A stretch of DNA of 64,000 bases from positions 2,317,074 through 2,381,073 of the forward strand of contig NZ_CH902578.1 of the NCBI RefSeq assembly GCF_000152805.1, given 5' to 3'. Source of the DNA: Maritimibacter alkaliphilus HTCC2654 (lineage in GTDB: Bacteria > Pseudomonadota > Alphaproteobacteria > Rhodobacterales > Rhodobacteraceae). The notes under the pieces were generated by a model. The model saw only the letters and a program-made list of their open reading frames with translations. It had not been told where the DNA came from and ran no database searches. This document shows positions 17,601 to 28,974 of this stretch, piece after piece; the stretch's first letter is position 1; each line of letters opens with the position of its first letter. The translations under genes were made by a program, and so were the position numbers.

Positions 17601-20600
17601 TCAGGTCGTCAGTCGGATGTCGTCGTCGATGATGAGCGTTCCGCCTTCGTCCCCCAGCGTGTAGATGGAATAGGTCTCGCCGCCGATGGTCACGTTCGTG
17701 TTGGTGTCGGACATGGCCGCGCCGTTGGTCCGGTCCACATTCACCGCATCGTCGCCCGATCCGTGGATCGTCAGCGTGTTCGAGTTGCCCGAAAGCCCTT
17801 CGAGCAGGTCCGAGGTGATGACCAGCGTGCTGTCTTCCGCGAACCGCAGGTCGACCGCCTCGATCTCGTGCCCGGTGAGACCCGGGTTCGACAGATCGAC
17901 CGCATTCGGCAGGCCCTTGTCGAGCGCGAAGAGCGTGGCGCTTTCGTTGCCCGCGTCATCGGTCTTGGTGATGACGAGGTGCGAGCCGTTCGGAAGCGTC
18001 TGGGTGAAGTAGAAATCCACCTCGCCGGTCGCGATCGGGTTCGCGAACTGCATGTTGCCGATGGTGCCCTGCGACCCGTCCAGCCCGACGGTCGACAGTG
18101 CCGCCGTCGCATCGCCCGCATCGACCGAGAAGCCGCGCAGAAGGTCGCCCGACCGGTTGAACGCGGTGACGAAGGCCGCGTCGGGCGCCTCGGTGTCCAG
18201 TTCGACGGTATCGGTGATCGTGCGCGTGTTGCCCGCCGCATCGGTGGCCGACACGGTGACGTCGAGCGTGTCTTCGCCCGTGCCAAGCTCGCCCGCCGAG
18301 AAGCTGGCGGTCCAGTTCCCGGCCCCGTCGACCGTTGCCGTATGGCTCGTCCCGTCGATGTCGACGACGACCGTCGATCCGGCTTCGACGACGCCCGTGA
18401 GCGTGAGGCCCAGCGCCGCTTCGGTCGCGTTGATGTAGCCGTCGCCCGCGATGGGCGTTGCGATGGCGAGGCGGTTCACCTCGGTATCCACCACGACCGT
18501 ATCGGTCAGCATGGCCGAGTTACCTGCGGCATCGGTCGCGGTCACGACCACGTTCACCCCCTGCTCGCCCGTGGGCACGCTGGATTTGGCGAAATTCACG
18601 GTCCAGTTGCCCGAACCGTCGACCGTGGCGGTCTGGGTCACGAGACCCATCTTGACCGAAACGACCGAGCCCGGCTCGACCGTGCCGGTCAGGGTGATGC
18701 CGTCGGCCCGTTCGACCGCGTTCACCACGCCATCGTTGTCCACCACGCCGTCGGACGAGAAATTCGTGACGACCGTGTCGATGGCGACGCTGTCGGTCAC
18801 CGTCTTGGTGTTGCCGTAGCCGTCGTTGATCGACGCGGTGATCTGCGACACATAGGTGCCCGCCGGGATCTGGTTGGCCGGGAAGGTGGCGGACCACGTG
18901 CCGTTCATCGCGGCCACGGTCGTCGTCTGCGCGGCGCCCAGCCCGACGGTGACCACCAGACCGGGGGTCGCCGTGCCGTGGATCACCACGCCATCGGCGC
19001 GTTCGGTCAGGTTCACCACATCGTCGATTTCGATTGCGGCCGGAGACAGCGCCAGATCGCCCGCCACCGTGTCAATGCGCACGGTTTCGGTCAGGATCGA
19101 GGTGTTGCCTGCCGCGTCGGTCGCGGTCACGGACAGAAGCGTGTCGTATTCGCCGTTGGGGATCGACCCCGGCGCGAAGCTCACCGACCACGACCCGTCC
19201 GGATTGACCGTTGCCACGCGCGTTGTGGCGCCGATGCTAACGGTGACCTGCGCGCCGATTTCCACGGTGCCGGTAAGATTCAGGCCGCTCGAAAGCTCGG
19301 ACCCGGCCAGCACACCGTCACCGCCCGTGGGCGAGCCGGTGAAGGCGAAGTCGGTGACGAGCGTGTCGATGCTGACCGTGGTGGTCGCCGTCGCCGTGTT
19401 GCCCGCCGCATCCGTGGACGTAACCGACACGTTGGCGGTGTATTCGCCGGACGCGATGCTGCCTTGAGGATAAGTGACGCTCCAGCTTCCGTTCGCGGCG
19501 ACCGCCGCCGGGCGGACGACGCCGCCGATGCTGACATTCACGCTCGCACCCGGTTCGGCGATCCCGGTGAGGGTCAGACCCGCGACCGTTTCGGCATAGT
19601 TCGCGATGCCGTCGCCGCCGGTGCCCGAAAGCGTGGCGGTGACCGAGGTCATGGTGTCGACCTGAACGATCTCGGTCATCGTGGTGACGTTGCCCACGAT
19701 GTCGGTCGATTTCACGAACACAGTCGCCTGATAGGCGCCTGTCGGCACTTCGCCTCCCGCGAAAGGCACGCTCCACGACCCGTTCGCGGCGACCGTTCCC
19801 GTGTGGGTGCGGCCCTGGAACGAGACGGATATCGAGGCACCCGGCTCGCCGATCCCCGTGAACGTGACGCCGGAGACCGCTTCGGCCTTGTTGATGATGT
19901 TGTCCGCCCCGCCGAAATTCATCGCGAGCGCCAGCAGGTTCTCGGTGTCGACCAGCATGGTCCCCGACGCGGTCGAGACGTTGCCGGCCAGATCGGTCGC
20001 GGTAACGTTGATCTGCTTCGTGTATTCACCACCGGCGATGTTCATCCCCGGCACGACCGCGGTCCACGTCCCGCCGGACCCGGCGGTGGCGGAATAGGTC
20101 ATGCCACCGACACTGACGACGATGGACGATCCGGCCTCCGCCGTGCCGGACAGGAGGACGGTGCCCGCCTGTGCGACGCCGTTCACGACCACTTCGCCGC
20201 CCGATCCCGTGCCCGAGGACAGGGTGACCGCGCCGTCGGTGTCGATGTCGATGGTCGAACTGGTGTTGGTGACGTTGCCTGCGGCATCGGTCGCCTTGAC
20301 CGTGATCGTCGAGGTATAGGTGCCGGACGGAATCTCGGATGAGGTGTAGGTGACGGACCAGCTTCCGGTGACGGATGCGACCGTCGTGTGCGTCACGCCG
20401 TTCATCGTGATTTCAAGCCGCGCGCCGGGTTCGGCGGTGCCCGTGATCTCGACCCCGGCATGGCGTTCGGATGCGTTCACCACGTTGTCGGTCGACAGCG
20501 TCAGGTCGATCGCCGCCGCGGGTGCGATCGTGTCGACGGTCATGGTGTGGGTGATCGTGGTCGCGTTGCCGTAGGCGTCGACCGAGGTGATGAACACGTC

Positions 20601-21758
20601 GATATCATATTCGCCGGTCGGCAGATCGCCGTGGCTGAAGTCGATGCTCCATTCCCCGTTCACGTTGACGGTGGTCGACCGCGTGAACCCGTTGACCTGA
20701 ATGGTGACCTTGGCCCCCGCTTCGCCATTGCCGACGAGCGTGAAGCCCGTCTGATTTTCGACCGCGTTCACGACGAAGCCCTGAACTCCGACGTAACGGT
20801 CGAATTCCACGTTCGGCGGCGTAGTGTCGATGACGACATGCTGGCCGGACAGGTTCACGGTCGTTCCGCCCGGTTCGGTCACGACCACGGTCACGCGGTA
20901 ATCGCCGTCGCCCGGGAAATTGCCGCCCGTGAACTTGGCGCTCCAGCGGCCTTCGAAGTTCGAATAGACCGTGATGGACTGGCCGCCGATGGTGACAAGC
21001 ACTTCGGAATTCGGCTCGGCCTGCCCGTTGATCGTGACCGTCTTGGTGCTGGACCTGTTGAAACTGTAATCTGCGTTCGCGTCGAAGATCTTCGCGGTGA
21101 TCGAGGTGCCCGATCCGCCCGTGGTTCCGCCGCCGGTGCTGGTGCCTCCGGTGTTCTTGACCGAGGTGGCCGACCCGACCAGCGCGGCGGCCCCCAGAAC
21201 CCCGGTGCCGAGCACGATCCCGGTTCCGGCGGTGCCGAGCCCGGCCAGCGGTGCAAGCCCGAAACCTGCGAGCATGGTGGGCGCGTCGTCGCTGCGCGAT
21301 GACCCGACATAGCCGTTCTGGTCGGCAAGGGCGGCGGCGACCGCCTCGTCCGCGTCGTCGTTATAGACGCCTTCGGCCAGAACCACCGGGTCGTCGGGGA
21401 AGGTGAGCGCGGCGAGTTCGCCGTACTTGCCCCAGATTTCGGTGTCGTGGTGGCTGACCTCGCTGGTGGCCGAAACCACGGTTCCGATCAGGTGGCCGCC
21501 TTCGTTGAGATACAGGTCGGCCTGCGGATTCCCGTCGGGACCGAAATAGTCCTCAAGCAGAATCTGACGCCCGTCGGCCATCAGAAGGACAAGGTCGTCG
21601 CCCTTCCGGATGTAGCCGGACACGTCCAGCCGTCGCATGTTCAGGGATACGGCGCCGCCCGCCGATAGTGCCAAATGTCCGTCAAATGAAGAATCGAAGA
21701 CCGTTCCCTGCTGGTAATTGCCAACAGCATCACGGGCCACGAATTGAATCGCGCTCAT
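17601..21758 (-). CDS. Large Ig-like repeat adhesin (BapA-like), type I secretion substrate
   Basis: A 1385-residue surface adhesin. Residues 1-about 130 resemble the BapA/LapF prefix domain (FVARDAVGNYQQGTVFDSS, a beta-rich region containing LLEDYFGPDG), which can hold the adhesin in the channel. A glycine/alanine-rich hydrophobic stretch follows (about 165-200). Then come ten tandem Ig-like modules of about 85-100 residues. Each has a VVNxxE-type opening, a GxxEPGAxVxVxxxG strand, a GxWSVxF strand and TATDAAGNxxxxTxTVxVDT at the end. The last ~200 residues have the pattern of a type I C-terminal secretion region (SNTLTIHGSGDDAVNV, YSIYTLGDEGGTLIIDDDI). No signal peptide. First gene of the operon with the TolC, ABC and fusion-protein genes. 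Confidence 0.9.
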   Translation of the reverse strand: MSAIQFVARDAVGNYQQGTVFDSSFDGHLALSAGGAVSLNMRRLDVSGYIRKGDDLVLLMADGRQILLEDYFGPDGNPQADLYLNEGGHLIGTVVSATSEVSHHDTEIWGKYGELAALTFPDDPVVLAEGVYNDDADEAVAAALADQNGYVGSSRSDDAPTMLAGFGLAPLAGLGTAGTGIVLGTGVLGAAALVGSATSVKNTGGTSTGGGTTGGSGTSITAKIFDANADYSFNRSSTKTVTINGQAEPNSEVLVTIGGQSITVYSNFEGRWSAKFTGGNFPGDGDYRVTVVVTEPGGTTVNLSGQHVVIDTTPPNVEFDRYVGVQGFVVNAVENQTGFTLVGNGEAGAKVTIQVNGFTRSTTVNVNGEWSIDFSHGDLPTGEYDIDVFITSVDAYGNATTITHTMTVDTIAPAAAIDLTLSTDNVVNASERHAGVEITGTAEPGARLEITMNGVTHTTVASVTGSWSVTYTSSEIPSGTYTSTITVKATDAAGNVTNTSSTIDIDTDGAVTLSSGTGSGGEVVVNGVAQAGTVLLSGTAEAGSSIVVSVGGMTYSATAGSGGTWTAVVPGMNIAGGEYTKQINVTATDLAGNVSTASGTMLVDTENLLALAMNFGGADNIINKAEAVSGVTFTGIGEPGASISVSFQGRTHTGTVAANGSWSVPFAGGEVPTGAYQATVFVKSTDIVGNVTTMTEIVQVDTMTSVTATLSGTGGDGIANYAETVAGLTLTGIAEPGASVNVSIGGVVRPAAVAANGSWSVTYPQGSIASGEYTANVSVTSTDAAGNTATATTTVSIDTLVTDFAFTGSPTGGDGVLAGSELSSGLNLTGTVEIGAQVTVSIGATTRVATVNPDGSWSVSFAPGSIPNGEYDTLLSVTATDAAGNTSILTETVRIDTVAGDLALSPAAIEIDDVVNLTERADGVVIHGTATPGLVVTVGLGAAQTTTVAAMNGTWSATFPANQIPAGTYVSQITASINDGYGNTKTVTDSVAIDTVVTNFSSDGVVDNDGVVNAVERADGITLTGTVEPGSVVSVKMGLVTQTATVDGSGNWTVNFAKSSVPTGEQGVNVVVTATDAAGNSAMLTDTVVVDTEVNRLAIATPIAGDGYINATEAALGLTLTGVVEAGSTVVVDIDGTSHTATVDGAGNWTASFSAGELGTGEDTLDVTVSATDAAGNTRTITDTVELDTEAPDAAFVTAFNRSGDLLRGFSVDAGDATAALSTVGLDGSQGTIGNMQFANPIATGEVDFYFTQTLPNGSHLVITKTDDAGNESATLFALDKGLPNAVDLSNPGLTGHEIEAVDLRFAEDSTLVITSDLLEGLSGNSNTLTIHGSGDDAVNVDRTNGAAMSDTNTNVTIGGETYSIYTLGDEGGTLIIDDDIRLTT

Positions 21759-22051
21759 GGTCTCTTCCGCCTACCTCAATGTCGCGTCGTTTTTTTAAGA
21801 ATTTGGTGACGCGTACTTTATGCTCTGATTTCCCAATAACTTTTCCGGGTCAGGATTTCCACCATTATTGAACCATTCGGTTCGTTCTCATCCGAAAACT
21901 TATCCGTGCGACCGAAATGCCACGCGGCCCGCTGGCGAGAACTGCCTAACAAAAAGGCAGGATCAGCCGATTGTCAGGGTGTCGCACGCCCTGTGAGGTT
22001 CGAATGCGCCAAACCGTTTGTGTGTCTCGTTTGCGCGGATACAATGACGGT
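21759..22051. other. Divergent regulatory region between adhesin and Anbu operons
   Basis: About 290 bases, more AT-rich than the surroundings (a T-run at 21789-21795), which should carry promoters for both operons. A 6-bp inverted repeat, CTGCCT (21942-21947) and AGGCAG (21955-21960), stands 92 bases before the ATP-grasp start. No gene is seen. Confidence 0.5.
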
Positions 22052-23476
22052 ATGAGCGACGAAAAAATCTTCGACGAAATGTGGGGGCGGGACGAACAGC
22101 TTCGCGACCCCTATGCAAATTTCCAATCCTGGTTCGACGGCGAAGACCCGGCCCGATTGCGTGCGAAACAACGCGAGGCCGACGATCTGTTCCGGCTGAC
22201 GGGCATCACCTTCAACGTCTATGGACGGCAGGAGGCCGAGGAACGGCTCATCCCCTTCGACATCGTGCCGCGGGTCATCGCCCAGCGCGAATGGCAGAAA
22301 CTCAGCCGTGGGATCGAACAGCGGGTGCGCGCGATCAACGCGTTCCTGAACGACATCTACGGGCGGCAGGAAATCATCAAGGCCGGGCGTCTCCCGCAGG
22401 AGATGATCGCCAAGAACGCGGCCTTCCTGCCCCAGATGATCGGCGTTCATCCACCCGGCGGGGTCTATACCCATATCGTCGGCATCGACCTCGTGCGGAC
22501 CGACGACAACGAGTTTTACGTGCTCGAGGACAATGCGCGCACGCCCTCCGGTGTCAGCTACATGCTCGAGAACCGCGAGACGATGCTGCATATGTTCCCC
22601 GAGCTTTTCGCCAAGAACAACGTGCTGCCGGTGTCGACCTATCCGGCGGACCTGCGCCGGTCGCTCGCCGCCTGTGCGCCGCCCGCCTGCGACGGGCCGC
22701 CCACGGTCGCGGTGCTAACGCCGGGCATCTACAACTCGGCCTATTTCGAACACAGCTTCCTTGCCGACCAGATGGGCGCGGAACTGGTCGAAGGCCACGA
22801 CCTGCGCGTGGTCGACGGGCGCGTCGCGATGCGCACGACCCGTGGTTACCAGCCGATCGACGTGCTCTACCGCCGCGTCGATGACGACTTCCTCGACCCG
22901 CTGAACTTCAACCCGGACAGCCAGTTGGGCGTGCCGGGGATCATGGACGTCTACCGCGCGGGCGGCATCACCATCGCCAACGCGCCCGGGTCCGGCATCG
23001 CGGACGACAAGGCGATCTACAGCTACATGCCCGAGATCGTCGAGTTCTACACGGGCGAGCGCCCGCTGTTGCAGAACGTGCCGACGTGGCGCTGTTCGGA
23101 CAAGGAAAGCCTGCAATACGTGCTCGACAACCTTGCCGACCTCGTCGTGAAAGAGGTGCACGGATCGGGCGGCTACGGGATGCTGATCGGCCCGACCGCG
23201 TCGAAAAAGGAAATCGCCGAGTTCCGAAAGAAGCTCGAAGCGCGGCCGGGCAATTACATCGCACAGCCGACGCTGTCGCTGTCCACCGTCCCGATCTTCA
23301 CCAACAAGGGCCTCTCGCCGCGCCATGTCGACCTGCGGCCCTTCGTCCTCGTCTCGCCGGAAGGGATCAACATCACCCCCGGCGGCCTCACCCGCGTCGC
23401 CTTGAAGAAAGGCTCGCTCGTCGTGAACTCGTCGCAGGGCGGCGGGACCAAGGACACCTGGGTGCTGGAGGACTGA
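22052..23476 (+). CDS. Circularly permuted ATP-grasp type 2 protein (Anbu operon)
   Basis: A 474-residue soluble protein. I use the ATG at 22052 (MSDEKIFDEMWGRDEQLRDPY); the 27 residues that could be read upstream look like leader DNA. Family blocks are NVYGRQEAEERLIPFDIVPR, GVYTHIVGIDLVRTDDNEFYVLEDNARTPSGVSYMLENR (given here only as a location, about residues 135-175), PTVAVLTPGIYNSAYFEHSFLA, NAPGSGIADDKAIYSYMPEI and KEVHGSGGYGMLIGP. The last is the permuted nucleotide-binding part. ATP-grasp enzymes join a carboxylate to an amine by an acyl phosphate, so a peptide or amide ligase is expected. It heads a four-gene operon with alpha-E, transglutaminase and Anbu genes, one base before the next start. 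Confidence 0.92.
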   Translation: MSDEKIFDEMWGRDEQLRDPYANFQSWFDGEDPARLRAKQREADDLFRLTGITFNVYGRQEAEERLIPFDIVPRVIAQREWQKLSRGIEQRVRAINAFLNDIYGRQEIIKAGRLPQEMIAKNAAFLPQMIGVHPPGGVYTHIVGIDLVRTDDNEFYVLEDNARTPSGVSYMLENRETMLHMFPELFAKNNVLPVSTYPADLRRSLAACAPPACDGPPTVAVLTPGIYNSAYFEHSFLADQMGAELVEGHDLRVVDGRVAMRTTRGYQPIDVLYRRVDDDFLDPLNFNPDSQLGVPGIMDVYRAGGITIANAPGSGIADDKAIYSYMPEIVEFYTGERPLLQNVPTWRCSDKESLQYVLDNLADLVVKEVHGSGGYGMLIGPTASKKEIAEFRKKLEARPGNYIAQPTLSLSTVPIFTNKGLSPRHVDLRPFVLVSPEGINITPGGLTRVALKKGSLVVNSSQGGGTKDTWVLED

Positions 23477-23477
23477 T

Positions 23478-24413
23478 ATGCTGGGAAAAACCGCAAACGG
23501 CCTCTACTGGATGTTCCGTTCGCTGGAGCGGGCCGAGAACACCTCGCGCCTGATCGAAACCGGACAGCGCATCGGCCTGACCCGTTCGGGCAACATGGAA
23601 TGGGGCTCGGTCATGCAGACCGCCGGCGTGGCCGAGGGCTATGCCGCGCATCGGGGCGAAATCGCGCAGGATCAGGCGATCGACTGGATGCTGCGCGACA
23701 CCGACAACCCGTCTTCGGTCCTGTCCTCCATCGCCTCGGCGCGTCAGAACGCCCGCATGGTGCGCACGGCGCTTACCACGGATGTGTGGGAGGCGACCAA
23801 CGCCGCCTACATGCGGTCGAAGGAACTGCTGGCCCGCAAGGTGCCGGAGCGCGACCTTCCCAACACGCTCAAGCTCATCCGTCAGCGCACGGCGCTGGTG
23901 CGCGGGGCCACGCATGGGACGATGCTGCGCAACGACATCTACGACTTCGCGCGCATCGGCACCTTCCTCGAACGCGCCGACAACACGGCGCGCATTCTCG
24001 ACGTGAAATACTATGTGCTTCTGCCCTCGGTCTTCGCCGTCGGCTCGACCATCGACAACGTGCAATGGGAAACCATCCTGCGCTCGGTCTCGGCTTCGGG
24101 TGGCTACCGCATGGCATACGGCAATCAGGTCAACGCCCGCGACATCGCGAAATTCCTGATCCTCGACAAACGGATGCCACGCAGCCTGAACTTCTGCGTG
24201 TCCAAGTTACGCGACAATCTGGGGTATCTCGCCTCGGACTACGACACCACGCTTCCGTCGCATGAGATCGCGGACAAGCTGGCGCAGAGGTTGTCGTTGC
24301 ATGACATCGACGAGATCTTCGAATACGGTCTGCACGAATACATCCAGACGATCCTCGCCTCGATCGGGGAGCTGGGCGCTCAGATCGAGCAGGATTACCG
24401 CTTTTACGTATAG
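23478..24413 (+). CDS. Alpha-E domain protein (Anbu operon)
   Basis: A 311-residue, almost wholly alpha-helical soluble protein of the alpha-E family. It begins MLGKTANGLYWMFRSLERAENTSR, the hallmark start of the family. Other blocks are NARMVRTALTTDVWEATN, IGTFLERADNTARILDVKYYVLLP and LILDKRMPRSLNFCVSKLRDNLG. The biochemical role of the domain is unknown. It is found almost always next to, or fused with, circularly permuted ATP-grasp proteins, and is thought to assist that ligase. It begins one base after the ATP-grasp stop and ends 11 bases before the transglutaminase start. Confidence 0.92.
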   Translation: MLGKTANGLYWMFRSLERAENTSRLIETGQRIGLTRSGNMEWGSVMQTAGVAEGYAAHRGEIAQDQAIDWMLRDTDNPSSVLSSIASARQNARMVRTALTTDVWEATNAAYMRSKELLARKVPERDLPNTLKLIRQRTALVRGATHGTMLRNDIYDFARIGTFLERADNTARILDVKYYVLLPSVFAVGSTIDNVQWETILRSVSASGGYRMAYGNQVNARDIAKFLILDKRMPRSLNFCVSKLRDNLGYLASDYDTTLPSHEIADKLAQRLSLHDIDEIFEYGLHEYIQTILASIGELGAQIEQDYRFYV

Positions 24414-24424
24414 GGTGGGCGTGC

Positions 24425-25222
24425 ATGCGGCTTAGAATAAAGCATACGACGCGATACAGGTTTGCCGAACCGGTGGCCTATGGTCTGCAACAGCTTCGCA
24501 AGACGCCGAAGTCCGGGCATCAGCAAGAGGTGCTGGACTGGACGACGACGGTCGAGAACGGGCGCAAGGAAGTGTCGTTCGAGGATCATCATCACAACGT
24601 GGTGGAACTTATCTCCATCGACCGGGATGCGACCGAGGTGACGGTCGTCTCGGAAGGCGAAGTGACGGTCGAAGACAGCGGGGGCGTCGTCGGGCGCCAC
24701 CCCGGACCCTCGCCGCTCTGGCTTTATGAGCGTGAGACGAAGATCACCAAATGCGGCAGCGGCGGGCGCGCCATCGTGCGCAAGATCGACGCGACGGGCG
24801 ATCTGGACAGGCTTCATGCCCTGATGCGCCAGATCGGCGAGCAGGTGACATATGCAACGGGCGAATCCCAATCGGACTGGACGGCGGAAGAAGCCATCGC
24901 GCATGGCAAGGGCGTCTGTCAGGACCACGCCCACATCTTTCTCGCCTGCGCGCGCGAGATGGGGTTCCCGGCCCGCTACGTCTCGGGCTACCTGATGATG
25001 GACGACCGCGTCGAACAGGATGCGACCCACGCATGGGCCGAAGCCCATGTCGACAACCTTGGCTGGGTCGGGTTCGACGTGTCGAACAACCAATGCCCCG
25101 ACGCACGCTACGTTCGTGTTGCAACGGGCCTTGATTACACCGAAGCTGCGCCGGTTATCGGGTCGCGAGTCGGTGGGTCAGCCGAAACGCTGGATGTCCA
25201 GATACAGGTGGCACAGCAATAA
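24425..25222 (+). CDS. Transglutaminase-like cysteine protease family protein (Anbu operon)
   Basis: A 265-residue protein with an N-terminal beta-rich domain of about 80 residues (MRLRIKHTTRYRFAEPVAYG) and a transglutaminase-like papain-fold domain. The catalytic triad is complete: Cys165 in GKGVCQDHAH, His202 in DATHAWAEAHV and Asp218 in GFDVSNN. It has no signal peptide, so it should act in the cytoplasm. Bacterial members mostly hydrolyse or form isopeptide or amide bonds. With the ATP-grasp ligase and Anbu protease in one operon it may remove or transfer the peptide tag that the ligase makes; this is inference. The stop is nine bases before the Anbu ATG. Confidence 0.93.
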   Translation: MRLRIKHTTRYRFAEPVAYGLQQLRKTPKSGHQQEVLDWTTTVENGRKEVSFEDHHHNVVELISIDRDATEVTVVSEGEVTVEDSGGVVGRHPGPSPLWLYERETKITKCGSGGRAIVRKIDATGDLDRLHALMRQIGEQVTYATGESQSDWTAEEAIAHGKGVCQDHAHIFLACAREMGFPARYVSGYLMMDDRVEQDATHAWAEAHVDNLGWVGFDVSNNQCPDARYVRVATGLDYTEAAPVIGSRVGGSAETLDVQIQVAQQ

Positions 25223-25231
25223 AGGGCTGAC

Positions 25232-25969
25232 ATGACCTATTGCGTCGGAATGATGCTCGACCGCGGGCTCGTGATGATGTCCGACACCCGCACGAATGCG
25301 GGCGTCGACAATATCGCCACGTTCAACAAGATGCACACGTGGGAGGTCGAGGGCGACCGCGCCCTGATCCTCATGTCGGCAGGCAACCTCGCCACCACCC
25401 AATCGGTCGTGTCGATGCTGGACGAGCGCACCAAGGCGCACGATCAGCGCAACCCCTCGATCCTCGAAGCGCCGTCGATGTTTCAGGTCGCGCGCCTGAT
25501 CGCCGAAACCCTGCGCGACGTCATCAGCATCCACGAAGACGCAGGCCCCCGCGCCGCCGCCCAGTTCGGCGCCACGCTTCTGCTGGGTGGTCAGGTCGCG
25601 GGCGGTCCGCCCCGGCTGTTCATGATCTATCCCGAGGGCAACTTCATCGAGGCGAGCGCGGACAACCCGTTCTTCCAGATCGGCGAGACCAAGTATGGCC
25701 GCCCGATCCTCGTCCGGGCCTTCGATCCGCAGATGAGTTTCGAGAAGGCATTGAAGCTGCTGTTGGTCAGCTTCGACTCGACGCTCAAGGCCAACCTGTC
25801 GGTCGGCCTGCCCTTCGATTTCCAGCTTTACGAGACGGATTCGCTGCGCCTTGGCTATCGCTCGCGGGTGCAGGGTGACAGCCCGTATTTCCAGCAAATC
25901 TCGTCCGGGTGGGGCGAGGCGCTGAAACAGGCGCTGGATTCGCTGCCGGATTTCGTGCTGGAGAAGTGA
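25232..25969 (+). CDS. Anbu proteasome-type protease
   Basis: A 245-residue member of the Ntn-hydrolase fold, family Anbu (predicted proteasome-type protease). It starts MTYCVGMMLDRGLVMMSDTR. After Met removal Thr1 is the nucleophile. Counting from Thr1, Asp17 (in MSDTR) and Lys32 (in FNKM) correspond to the catalytic Asp and Lys of proteasome beta-subunits. The rest shows the alternating strands and helices of the fold (VEGDRALILMSAGNLATTQ, LLLGGQVAGGPPRLFMIYPEGNFI). Anbu proteins form open-ring or helical assemblies rather than closed proteasomes. It is the last gene of the ATP-grasp / alpha-E / transglutaminase operon. Confidence 0.94.
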   Translation: MTYCVGMMLDRGLVMMSDTRTNAGVDNIATFNKMHTWEVEGDRALILMSAGNLATTQSVVSMLDERTKAHDQRNPSILEAPSMFQVARLIAETLRDVISIHEDAGPRAAAQFGATLLLGGQVAGGPPRLFMIYPEGNFIEASADNPFFQIGETKYGRPILVRAFDPQMSFEKALKLLLVSFDSTLKANLSVGLPFDFQLYETDSLRLGYRSRVQGDSPYFQQISSGWGEALKQALDSLPDFVLEK

Positions 25970-26020
25970 CAGGCGCCCAAGCGCCGCCTATGATGGCCGC
26001 CGCTTCCGGGAGCCTTGTCG

Positions 26021-27751
26021 ATGCCTCGACTGATCGCCTTTCTGCTCGCCGCCGCGCTTCTTGCCGGAAGCGTGGGGTGGTCGGCATATCGTGACGCACT
26101 CGACCGCCTGACGGAACGGGGCGAGGCCGACCTGTCGCTCGCCGCCGACCGGGTGACCGGCCAGCTTCTGCGCTACCGCGAGCTTGCCGTGATCCTCGCC
26201 CGCCATCCCGATCTGAAACGCCTTCTGATCTGGGGCGGGTCGCCCGGCGCTTCGGTGGAAGTCGTGCAGGGCATGGCCGACATGACGGGCGCCTCGGACG
26301 TGGCGGCGGTCGACCTCCATGGCCGCATCGTGGCGGGCAGCAACGGCAGCTCGGTCGCCCGCGACCCGAAGGAACCGCCGCTCGAACGCGCACTAGACGG
26401 GGCGCTGGGCACGTCGAACGAAATCGTCGCCGGCCCCCTCGGCCCGCGCCGTTACTTTGCCTTCGCCGCACCTGTGCAGAGCGAGTCCGGCGTGGTCGTC
26501 GGCGCCGTCATGACCCGCGTGTCGGTGGCGCAGATCGAAGACAACTGGCCCGGCGACGCGCCGCCTGTGTTCTTCACCGACCGCCAGAACCGCATTTTCG
26601 TGACCAACCGATCCGGCCTCGTCCTCGCGGACCGCAGCGACGGAATGCCCGACTATGAAAGCGCCATCACGGCGGGGCGTGAGGTCTGGCGCATTTTCGG
26701 GGATCGCTACCTGCCCAATCGTGCGATCCACCTGCAACGCGATCTGCCGACCATTGGCATGACCGCCGAAATCCTTATCGACAGTTCCGGTGCATTCTAC
26801 TCTGCCGTCCTGTGGGGCCTGATTGCGGCGGGTGCGCTTTTGACCTTCGGCGCGATCCTGTTCTTCGTGCAGCAGAAACGCGCGGCGCTGGCCGATCGGT
26901 TGACGGTCGAAGCCGCGGCGAACGCCCGTCTCGAAGCGCGCGTCGTCGAACGCACGCAGGAACTGACCGAGGTGAACGCGGACCTGCGCCGCGAAGTGTC
27001 GGAACGGAAAGAGGCCGAAGCGGCGCTGAAACGCGCGCAGGACGAGCTTGTGCAGGCGGGCAAGCTGTCGGCGCTCGGCAAGATGTCGGCCGGGATCAGT
27101 CACGAACTGAACCAACCGCTCATGGCGATCCGGTCCTTCGCGGAAAACGGCGAGCAGTTCTTTGACCGGGGCAAGCCGGAACGCGCACGCGACAACCTTG
27201 GCAAGATCTCGGAACTGGCACGCCGGATGGGCCGGATCATCCAGAATCTCAGGGCCTTCGCCCGGCAGGAAAGTGGCCCGGTCACAGATGTCGATCTGGT
27301 CGATGTCATCGACGCCTCGCTTGAAATGACCGCCGACAAGATCCACCGCCACGAGGTCGAGCTTGTCTATGACCGCCCCCACCTTCCGATCATGGTGCGC
27401 GGGGGCGAAGTGCGGCTTCAACAGGTCGTCGTGAACCTCGTCTCGAATGCCGTCGACGCGATGAGCGATGCGCCCGAGCGCCGCCTTTCGCTGACCCTCG
27501 ACACCGACGGCCCCGCCGTGCGCCTGACGGTGCGCGATTCCGGCCCCGGCATCGCGGACCCCGACCGCGTGTTCGATCCGTTCTATTCCACGAAAGAGGT
27601 CGGCGCGGCCGAGGGCATGGGGCTGGGCCTGTCGATCTCATACGGTCTGGTCCAGAGTTTCGGCGGCGCGATCAAGGGGCTGAACCACCCCGAGGGCGGC
27701 GCGGCCTTTACGGTCGAACTGGTGCCCGCCGGGCTGGAGGCGGCCGCGTGA
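26021..27751 (+). CDS. DctB-type sensor histidine kinase
   Basis: A 576-residue membrane kinase. The first helix (IAFLLAAALLAGSVGW) and a second near residue 265-285 (SAVLWGLIAAGALLTFGAILFF) enclose a periplasmic double-PAS (dCache-like) sensor domain of about 240 residues, like that of C4-dicarboxylate sensor DctB. A coiled coil follows (LEARVVERTQELTEVNADLRR). The H-box is GKMSAGISHELNQPLMAIRSF, the N-box LQQVVVNLVSNAVDAMS, and the G-boxes RDSGPGIADP and GMGLGLSIS. The ATG at 26021 is taken; a TTG six bases earlier is possible. The stop overlaps the regulator gene by four bases. The ligand is probably a carboxylate taken up by one of the TRAP systems nearby. Confidence 0.88.
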   Translation: MPRLIAFLLAAALLAGSVGWSAYRDALDRLTERGEADLSLAADRVTGQLLRYRELAVILARHPDLKRLLIWGGSPGASVEVVQGMADMTGASDVAAVDLHGRIVAGSNGSSVARDPKEPPLERALDGALGTSNEIVAGPLGPRRYFAFAAPVQSESGVVVGAVMTRVSVAQIEDNWPGDAPPVFFTDRQNRIFVTNRSGLVLADRSDGMPDYESAITAGREVWRIFGDRYLPNRAIHLQRDLPTIGMTAEILIDSSGAFYSAVLWGLIAAGALLTFGAILFFVQQKRAALADRLTVEAAANARLEARVVERTQELTEVNADLRREVSERKEAEAALKRAQDELVQAGKLSALGKMSAGISHELNQPLMAIRSFAENGEQFFDRGKPERARDNLGKISELARRMGRIIQNLRAFARQESGPVTDVDLVDVIDASLEMTADKIHRHEVELVYDRPHLPIMVRGGEVRLQQVVVNLVSNAVDAMSDAPERRLSLTLDTDGPAVRLTVRDSGPGIADPDRVFDPFYSTKEVGAAEGMGLGLSISYGLVQSFGGAIKGLNHPEGGAAFTVELVPAGLEAAA

Positions 27752-28974
27752 CGCGCCGGGTTCTGCTGGTCGACGACGATGCCTCGGTGCGCGAGGCGCT
27801 TGGGCAGACGCTTGAGCTTGCCGATCTGGTCCCGGTCCTCGCGGGCAGCTACATCGAAGCCAAGGACCACATCACCGCCGACTTCGAGGGGGTCGTGGTC
27901 AGCGATATCCGTATGCCGGGCAAGGACGGCTTCGCGCTCCTCGGTTTCACCCATGAGGTCGACCCGGAACTGCCCGTGATACTGTTGACCGGAGAGGGCG
28001 ACATTCCGACGGCCGTTCGGGGCATGGCGGCCGGGGCCTTCGACTTTCTCGAAAAACCCTGCGCGCCCGCCGACCTGCTGACCGTCGTGGAAAAGGCCCT
28101 GAAGACCCGCGCACTGGTGCTGGAAAACAGGTCGCTCAAGGCGCAGGTCGAGGCAGGCGATGCCGCCGCGCGCCTGCTTCGGGGCACCTCGGCGCTGTCC
28201 GAAAAGATGCGCGACGATGCCCGCGCCGTGGCCCGCACGATGGCCGATGCGCTCATCACAGGTGAGCCGGGGGTGGGCACGTCGAAGATGGCGGAAGTCG
28301 TCCACCTGCTTTCCGCCGTGTCGCGCGGCCCGTTCCTGAAAATCCCCGGCGCGGGGACGACGCCCGACACGCTGGCCGCCGTGTTCGACGAGGCCGAGGG
28401 CGGCACGATCTTCATCGACGAGGTCGCGGGGATGAGCCAGCCCGCGCAATTCGCGCTGCTCGAACGGCTCGAACAGCCTTCCGCGCCACGGGTGCTGGCC
28501 GGGACGTATCAGGATCTTGCCAAGCTGACGGAAACCGGCGCGTTCAACCCCGATCTTTACTATCGGCTCGAAGCCGCGCGCATCCACATCCCGCCGCTTC
28601 GCGAACGGCGCGAGGATATCCCGACGCTCTTTCGGCATTACGTCGAAATCGCATGCGAACAGGCCGCGCTGCCCAAGCCCGACATCCCGACCGATGTGAC
28701 CCACCGCCTGATGGGGCAGGACTGGCCGGGGAACGCCCGTGCGCTGATGAACGCCGCGATGCGCTTCGCGATGGGTCTGGCGGAACCCGACGCCGCAGGC
28801 GGGCTGGGGCTTGCCGAACGCATGGCGGATGTGGAGCGCGCCTTTCTGATCGAGGCCTTGCGCGATCACGAAGGCCGCGCGACCGAGGCCGCGCGCAGCC
28901 TGAAACTCCCACGCAAGACGTTTTACGACAAGCTTGCGCGGCATGGGCTGAAACCCGAGGATTACCGCAGCTAG
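27748..28974 (+). CDS. DctD-like response regulator lacking the GAFTGA loop
   Basis: A 408-residue NtrC-family regulator: receiver domain (1-about 120; acidic pocket VDDDAS, phosphorylation Asp in VVSDIRMPGKDG, Lys in EKPCAP), AAA+ domain (about 140-335) and a Fis-type helix-turn-helix (ATEAARSLKLPRKTFYDKLARHGL). The AAA+ domain is degenerate. The Walker A position reads GEPGVGTSK, without the usual GxGK lysine. The segment between PFLKIPGAG and GGTIFIDEV is about 30 residues shorter than in sigma-54 activators, so the GAFTGA loop that contacts sigma-54 is absent. The sensor-2 region YYRLEAARIHIPPLRERREDIP remains. It may activate sigma-70 promoters, as Rhodobacter NtrC does, or only bind DNA. 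Confidence 0.87.
   Translation: MTRRVLLVDDDASVREALGQTLELADLVPVLAGSYIEAKDHITADFEGVVVSDIRMPGKDGFALLGFTHEVDPELPVILLTGEGDIPTAVRGMAAGAFDFLEKPCAPADLLTVVEKALKTRALVLENRSLKAQVEAGDAAARLLRGTSALSEKMRDDARAVARTMADALITGEPGVGTSKMAEVVHLLSAVSRGPFLKIPGAGTTPDTLAAVFDEAEGGTIFIDEVAGMSQPAQFALLERLEQPSAPRVLAGTYQDLAKLTETGAFNPDLYYRLEAARIHIPPLRERREDIPTLFRHYVEIACEQAALPKPDIPTDVTHRLMGQDWPGNARALMNAAMRFAMGLAEPDAAGGLGLAERMADVERAFLIEALRDHEGRATEAARSLKLPRKTFYDKLARHGLKPEDYRS

Follow-up and report, generated by a model that had tools for sequence, protein, structure and literature searches.

Anbu, a protease of the proteasome family, was described in 2008 (PMC5666114); with structures solved, it was still called a protein of unknown function in 2021 (PMC8665760). 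Its published operon (PP_2685-2688 in Pseudomonas putida, with counterparts in Yersinia bercovieri and Pseudomonas aeruginosa) joins four families in the order ATP-grasp, Alpha-E, transglutaminase and Anbu (PMC6376114, PMC7801951). No later functional work on Anbu was recognised by title or abstract in the open-access literature. We analysed a stretch of 64,000 nucleotides from Maritimibacter alkaliphilus HTCC2654 (contig NZ_CH902578.1, positions 2,317,074 to 2,381,073), called the window throughout, and find that it contains an intact copy of this published operon, with the same four families in the defining order. We tentatively hypothesize that the operon encodes a synthetase/amidase cycle whose substrate is a small peptide or amide of non-ribosomal origin, with a possible role in nitrogen metabolism.

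Several described systems share parts with this operon. The DUF2126 cluster (I35_5080-5083 in Burkholderia cenocepacia) has the ATP-grasp, Alpha-E and transglutaminase families in common with it, and the copy of that cluster in the window's genome has a transglutaminase-DUF2126 protein of 1118 amino acids in place of Anbu. This second, Anbu-less cluster (L039:5542-12228; contig C4, about 410.5-417.2 kb) comprises genes for a transglutaminase, Alpha-E, ATP-grasp and transglutaminase-DUF2126 protein; an apparent ligase-Alpha-E fusion in it was rejected, as the two parts lie in different frames. The window's ligase is a relative (57% identity) of Mfla_0391 from Methylobacillus flagellatus (PDB 3n6x), which is a 'putative glutathionylspermidine synthase' by record name only, and its ATP-grasp fold is related to those of YgiC/YjfC and of glutathionylspermidine synthetase/amidase (2io7-2iob). 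According to the PDB titles, the latter pairs amide synthesis with amide hydrolysis, both in one protein; it is not known to be accompanied by Alpha-E or an Ntn protease. The Pup-proteasome system likewise places a ligase beside a proteasome-family protease. It uses a protein tag and an AAA+ partner, whereas for the Anbu operon no tag gene was found nearby, there is no AAA+ partner and the ligase is of another family.

The original prediction, made from the letters of the window, described four tightly packed genes with gaps of 1, 11 and 9 bases. Re-derived coordinates and gaps agree with it, and all four open reading frames (ORFs), on the plus strand, have an ATG start and a single stop at the end. 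The assignments to the ATP-grasp, Alpha-E, transglutaminase and Anbu families are upheld by Pfam and PDB sequence matches, among them 3n6x for the ligase (E 1.7e-190), 3isr for the transglutaminase (1.1e-11) and five entries named Anbu, Designed Anbu Protein or Peptidase for the protease (1.2e-90 to 4.5e-66). The top match of the protease, 5loy, represents a consensus design based on Anbu-1 (PMC5666114). By sequence the protease is closer to Anbu than to HslV or the 20S proteasome, with 20S subunits matching at 0.003 or worse and no HslV entry among the PDB matches at E up to 1. The host genome is 4.54 Mb in size and 99.99% complete. Among named relatives, Rhodovulum strictum has the most similar Anbu (75%), and names of this kind place the window's order as Rhodobacterales.

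We drew genomes evenly and scored presence as a hidden Markov model match at E 0.001, or, for Anbu, by protein at 1e-15 in the phylum and 1e-20 in the window's order. Anbu is present in 144 of 398 Pseudomonadota genomes (the window's own included). Of the 196 genomes drawn from the order, 145 have Anbu, each with one match at E 1e-20, and 51 do not. From these, 119 loci were picked by hand, 59 of the 145 order matches and 60 of 124 places outside the family. The four genes stand in the same order and on the same strand in 84 of these 119 relatives' loci (49/59 in the order and 35/60 elsewhere), and the arrangement recurs in 74 of 80 named loci, of which at least two genomes are also among the 119. 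Five of the six named exceptions are without at least one gene in the DNA covered (L207 and L221 are short records); in the sixth, L233, all four genes are present, with Anbu apart from the other three. The four families thus recur together, as the original prediction held, and chance is excluded as the source of the grouping. Over the 84 loci and the window, the pairwise identities of the four proteins correlate with each other (r 0.89-0.93), and the loci fall into two groups by Anbu identity to the window's copy, group A (56-74%, 38 loci) and group B (39-50%, 46 loci).

The genes are not equally constant. Counting Alpha-E from either cluster, 141 of the 398 Pseudomonadota genomes have both Anbu and Alpha-E, 3 have Anbu only, 71 Alpha-E only and 183 neither (Fisher p 9e-49, shared ancestry ignored). 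Anbu is therefore found without Alpha-E in 3 of 144 genomes, all from one genus, and Alpha-E without Anbu in 71 of 212. Within the window's family, 21 of the 27 genomes in the phylum draw have both and 6 have neither, and those 6 are also without the ligase family. A ligase gene is present in all 99 of the 99 fetched loci that have Alpha-E. Eighteen genomes have Anbu without an operon gene in the fetched locus, and 17 of them have Alpha-E elsewhere (best E at most 9e-85); the neighbours of unlinked Anbu in eight loci look ordinary, with one MutS-like by eye. The pattern suggests that the ligase and Alpha-E form the core and that Anbu, the usual follower, is an add-on to the ligase. Four genomes from two lineages (G106, G287, G482 and G562) carry a stand-alone Anbu with its three catalytic residues kept and no match to Alpha-E, CP_ATPgrasp_2 or Bact_transglu_N (stand-alone loci L179, L180, L181 and L084). 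G106 belongs to the window's family, lies outside the phylum draw and breaks the family rule; the other three belong to one genus elsewhere, in which the Anbu of L180 shares 97.5% and 94.7% identity with its two counterparts. Because Anbu stands alone in two lineages, its dependence on the ligase is not absolute. Of the interpretation given in the original prediction, functional coupling is supported by the rarity of Anbu without Alpha-E and by the correlated identities, and the likeness to pupylation is not.

The structure model of the ligase (pLDDT, the predicted local distance difference test, of 84) has 3n6x as its nearest fold (Foldseek E 2.2e-65). The next folds are homoglutathione and glutathione synthetases (E from 7e-17), followed by the fungal amide ligase Cp1B (3e-13), glutathionylspermidine synthetase/amidase (E. 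coli chains of 2io7-2iob and 3o98 among the matches listed, with E between 8.7e-13 and 1.4e-7), YgiC/YjfC (7e-11 and 3e-10) and trypanothione synthetase (1e-8). As judged from this global fold comparison, the kinship would favour a small-molecule product; the reported product of Cp1B is a free pseudodipeptide (PMC12568646). The Pfam scan of the 474 residues matched CP_ATPgrasp families only and no fused amidase domain, and we therefore do not class the ligase as a member of the glutathionylspermidine synthetase/amidase family. The Y. bercovieri ATP-grasp protein liberates phosphate from ATP (PMC6376114).

Alpha-E, in a model of pLDDT 92, is all-helical. Its first 118 residues align with the remainder at an hhalign probability of 99% (E 4.5e-19), the ER motif at residues 17-18 has a second copy at 165-166, and Arg24 has a counterpart at 172; at least 97 of 99 sequences keep each of these. 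Alpha-E is accordingly a hidden tandem duplication, which we did not meet in the literature on this operon, where no search was aimed at this point. No significant PDB match was found by sequence, profile or fold; the fold search gave none at E 0.001 or better, and the best template modelling (TM) score among the 50 matches listed was 0.36. In the window's genome the operon copy scores 1.9e-87 and the sister-cluster copy 7.8e-55. The alignments were thinned: of 94 Alpha-E references 71 were used, and of 60 ligase references 41.

The transglutaminase-fold protein of the window has the predicted triad of Cys165, His202 and Asp218, and the corresponding columns are conserved in relatives and window together (C 92/93, H 92/93, D 93/93); one of the odd rows, L138, matches weakly (78 bits) and represents a different kind of protein. 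The original prediction would have been undermined by relatives that keep the operon and lose its catalytic residues, and these are nearly lacking: in L121:4959-5786 (minus strand) Pro replaces the catalytic Cys in a full operon with ligase, Alpha-E and Anbu kept, and in L070 the ligase is split over two frames. In two genomes, G226 and G465, the ligase, Alpha-E and Anbu are present but nothing matches Bact_transglu_N, and the transglutaminase is therefore optional, not obligatory, to the module. Two loci of the order (L064 and L066) have a second transglutaminase-like gene directly 5' of the ligase. Seven others (L075, L077, L080, L092, L123, L124 and L127) have a transglutaminase ORF of 918-1130 amino acids near Anbu, the size of that in the sister cluster, as if two clusters were mixed.

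The predicted catalytic residues Thr1, Asp17 and Lys32 of Anbu are intact in the window (ORF residues 2, 18 and 33, with Thr right after the start codon) and present in 120 of 120 proteins, the window's and those of the 119 relatives. Anbu assembles into an open split-ring or lock-washer (PMC5666114, PMC6376114), and Thr1 of P. aeruginosa Anbu binds epoxomicin and MG132 (PMC5666114), from which we take it to be a working nucleophile. None of three standard peptides was cleaved by Y. bercovieri Anbu (PMC6376114), tests of the P. aeruginosa protein with a wider set showed no activity either (PMC5666114), and no AAA+ partner is described at the genomic level (PMC5666114, PMC6376114). Long 'fused' Anbu frames of 639-975 amino acids were rejected as frames open from upstream in GC-rich DNA, in which Anbu has its own MTYC/VTYC start. 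One relative's Anbu match (G396:C7:212650-213372) holds an in-frame TAA, and a second proteasome-family gene in the window's genome (G000:C4:2564872-2565390; E 1.8e-24) is probably HslV.

In P. putida the Anbu-operon genes are called likely NtrB/NtrC-controlled, with their induction cited from earlier work, and PP_2686-2688 rise 11-15-fold in the wild type under nitrogen limitation (PMC7801951; the nitrogen induction is also summarised in PMC5666114). COG3484 is listed among predicted members of sigma54 regulons in alpha-, beta- and gammaproteobacteria (PMC12316311), the sister cluster of B. cenocepacia is NtrC/sigma54-dependent (PMC5491218), and the domains of the module have been tied to urea metabolism in marine metagenomes (PMC3597751). 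By analogy, this response in some other proteobacteria suggests a possible role in nitrogen or amide storage or recycling.

We scanned the 400 bases before the ligase for sigma54-like sites with a sigma54 consensus (at least 10 of 12 positions), using shuffles that keep base composition only. Such sites occur in 19 of 44 stretches outside the order (1 in the antisense direction, 0.88 in shuffles) and in 1 of 56 inside it (1.25 in shuffles). Before four-gene operons they were found in 17/28 group-B stretches outside the order and 0/17 inside, and in 1/31 group-A stretches inside and 1/7 outside. The 73 named loci with enough upstream DNA, their orders assigned from record titles, gave 0/19 in Rhizobiales, 0/15 in Sphingomonadales (antisense 2) and 3/39 in the others (shuffles 0.95). 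The window's upstream region is not among the stretches that score; the sigma54-type pattern TGGCACGNNNNTTGCW, allowing up to 2 mismatches, has no match in 21759..22051 and is no commoner in the window than expected by chance. A profile search of the host genome gave no match to the sigma54 DNA-binding domain. Among 14 chosen genomes, the domain was found in 2 of the 7 from the window's family and in all 7 from elsewhere. With sigma54 missing from the genome, another promoter must drive the window's operon. The window's copy thus differs from the published operon in belonging to group A, in upstream sigma54-like sites that do not exceed chance and in a genome without a sigma54 match; the NtrC/sigma54 control proposed for P. 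putida was not seen in the window, and we do not count it as a defining feature. An NtrC-site pattern was found in 1 of 100 upstream stretches (antisense 1, shuffles 1.05). A dyad search over the 56 upstream stretches of the order gave pairs at 30.9, 30.0, 26.1 and 25.0, against a top value of 21.4 in one shuffle.

In the cycle that we hypothesize, the ATP-grasp enzyme, constantly accompanied by Alpha-E, would use ATP to couple an amine to a carboxylate, which an amino acid or short peptide would provide. One end of the resulting amide would be transferred or removed by the transglutaminase-fold enzyme and Anbu would hydrolyse the product, such that the bond is made and recovered. The logic would be that of the bifunctional glutathionylspermidine synthetase/amidase distributed over separate subunits, rather than that of Pup and the proteasome. 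We consider such a cycle, the reading that we favour, possible, and its narrower form, in which an undescribed small peptide or amide made by ATP-grasp and Alpha-E and hydrolysed by open-ring Anbu buffers nitrogen, doubtful. If true, a proteasome branch thought to be ancestral would serve small-molecule metabolism and not protein destruction. An Anbu that follows the ligase pair, without a tag encoded nearby and beside a ligase resembling small-amide synthetases, calls for assays on small peptides, amides and polyamine conjugates in addition to tagged proteins, for which the four Anbu-alone genomes provide natural controls.

A number of observations weigh against the cycle. The Alpha-E counts pool the operon copy and the sister-cluster copy, and stand-alone Anbu in four genomes represents either ligase-free use or newly orphaned genes. 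The fold likeness of the ligase is global, with TM scores (query length) among the matches listed of 0.49-0.64 for glutathione-type synthetases and 0.41-0.48 for glutathionylspermidine synthetases and YgiC/YjfC. In Y. bercovieri, glutamine, glutamate and Anbu gave no stimulation of the ATP-grasp protein, and Anbu showed no specific interaction with the operon proteins (PMC6376114), so that the release of phosphate may reflect idle hydrolysis. Binding of epoxomicin indicates that the Anbu channel accepts a peptide-like ligand, which also suits a peptidase. In P. putida, Anbu (PP_2685) changes 1.12-fold in the wild type and 1.45-fold in an rpoN mutant, in which PP_2686-2688 are still induced 14-20-fold (PMC7801951), making strict sigma54 control in that organism doubtful. 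The odds of the cycle, and of its nitrogen-buffering form, are lowered by the near-constant P. putida Anbu, by the induction of its partners without rpoN and by the binding of peptide-like inhibitors, which slightly raise those of the proteolysis reading below.

Some of the same observations would fit proteolysis under nitrogen starvation, an idea discussed in PMC6376114, in which Anbu degrades damaged or surplus proteins and the amino acids or ammonia thus released are processed by ligase, Alpha-E and transglutaminase. The nitrogen induction of the P. putida genes (PMC7801951, PMC5666114), the sigma54-like sites of group B, the stand-alone Anbu of four genomes and the binding of epoxomicin all agree with it. 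However, Anbu showed no peptidase activity on the test substrates in the published assays, is nearly always accompanied by a ligase pair that plain proteolysis does not need, and is the gene that rises only 1.12-fold in wild-type P. putida (PMC7801951). We regard this explanation, too, with doubt.

Peptide tagging is already in print, and PMC6376114 attributes the idea to both Iyer 2009 and Valas & Bourne 2008; a peptide-synthesis/peptidase role is credited to Iyer 2009 as well (PMC6376114, PMC5666114). In this scheme the ligase would build a peptide on target proteins, and Anbu would degrade the tagged proteins or remove the tag. The co-occurrence of a ligase with a proteasome-family protease speaks for it, as does the binding of peptide-like proteasome inhibitors, and open Anbu rings might admit proteins. 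We searched for a conserved short peptide gene near the operon among ORFs with 10-75 codons following the start codon. The stretches covered were the 400 bases before the ligase (n=100), the 500 after Anbu (n=120) and those transglutaminase-Anbu gaps of at least 40 bases (40 of 89). No short ORF family was common across lineages in these 100 upstream, 120 downstream and 40 gap stretches, a search confined to the vicinity of the operon. The clusters listed comprise at most 7 loci each and look like shared-synteny fragments of neighbouring genes; two of them we take, by eye, to be the end of a D-aminoacyl-tRNA deacylase and a YacG-type zinc protein. Beside the missing tag gene stand a ligase fold nearest to glutathione-type, glutathionylspermidine and small-amide synthetases and the absence of Anbu from 71 of 212 Alpha-E genomes; PMC5666114 and PMC6376114 add uncleaved test peptides and no AAA+ partner at the genomic level. 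The comparison with pupylation made in the original prediction is thus not supported; a tag encoded elsewhere, a non-coded peptide or another modification of proteins would still be compatible with the data. Overall we find tagging unlikely.

Anbu could also act as a transferase or ligase, and not as a hydrolase, moving an acyl group made by the ATP-grasp enzyme. Its relative connectase provides a precedent (PMC8665760), and Thr1-Asp17-Lys32 is invariant (120/120) with a reactive Thr1, although the published assays showed no hydrolysis of peptides; this reading seems improbable to us. That the operon is ordinary and unused in this genome, as the missing sigma54 and the 51 of 196 genomes of the order without Anbu might hint, is very improbable given four intact frames and all named catalytic residues kept.

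Table 1. Features of the operon and its surroundings (window coordinates).
Feature	Position	Strand	Evidence
Circularly permuted ATP-grasp ligase, 474 aa	22052..23476	+	PF14403 CP_ATPgrasp_2 7e-169; PDB 3n6x
Alpha-E protein, 311 aa, all-helical, two related halves	23478..24413	+	PF04168 1.2e-87
Transglutaminase-fold cysteine enzyme, 265 aa	24425..25222	+	PF01841 Transglut_core 1.1e-23; PF08379 Bact_transglu_N 2.5e-19
Anbu, proteasome-family Ntn hydrolase, 245 aa	25232..25969	+	Pfam Proteasome 1.5e-8; PDB Anbu-type entries
Intergenic stretch, expected site of operon promoter	21759..22051	.	no sigma54-type site found
BapA-like Ig-repeat gene, upstream neighbour	17601-21758	opposite operon	Pfam
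Sensor kinase and response regulator, downstream of operon	26015-28974		Pfam

In the window's group no neighbour beyond the four genes is common to many loci, and a block 3' of Anbu, shared by as many as 15 of the group-B loci within the order, represents local synteny. A defence system was rejected, with no PADLOC match, as was a mobile element, with no IMG/VR relative in a search sensitive to close relatives alone. Matches to 27 plasmid and 2 phage records all lie below 60% identity, and several of these records are chromosome-sized. The divergent upstream gene encodes a protein of 1385 amino acids with a BapA-type N-terminal domain and about 10 Ig-like repeats, likely a surface adhesin. The downstream sensor kinase and response regulator are presumably DctB/DctD. 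Activators of sigma54 generally need a GAFTGA motif, which the DctD-like regulator (27748-28974) does not have; perhaps it once activated a sigma54 that this genome, now without a sigma54 domain match, has since lost.

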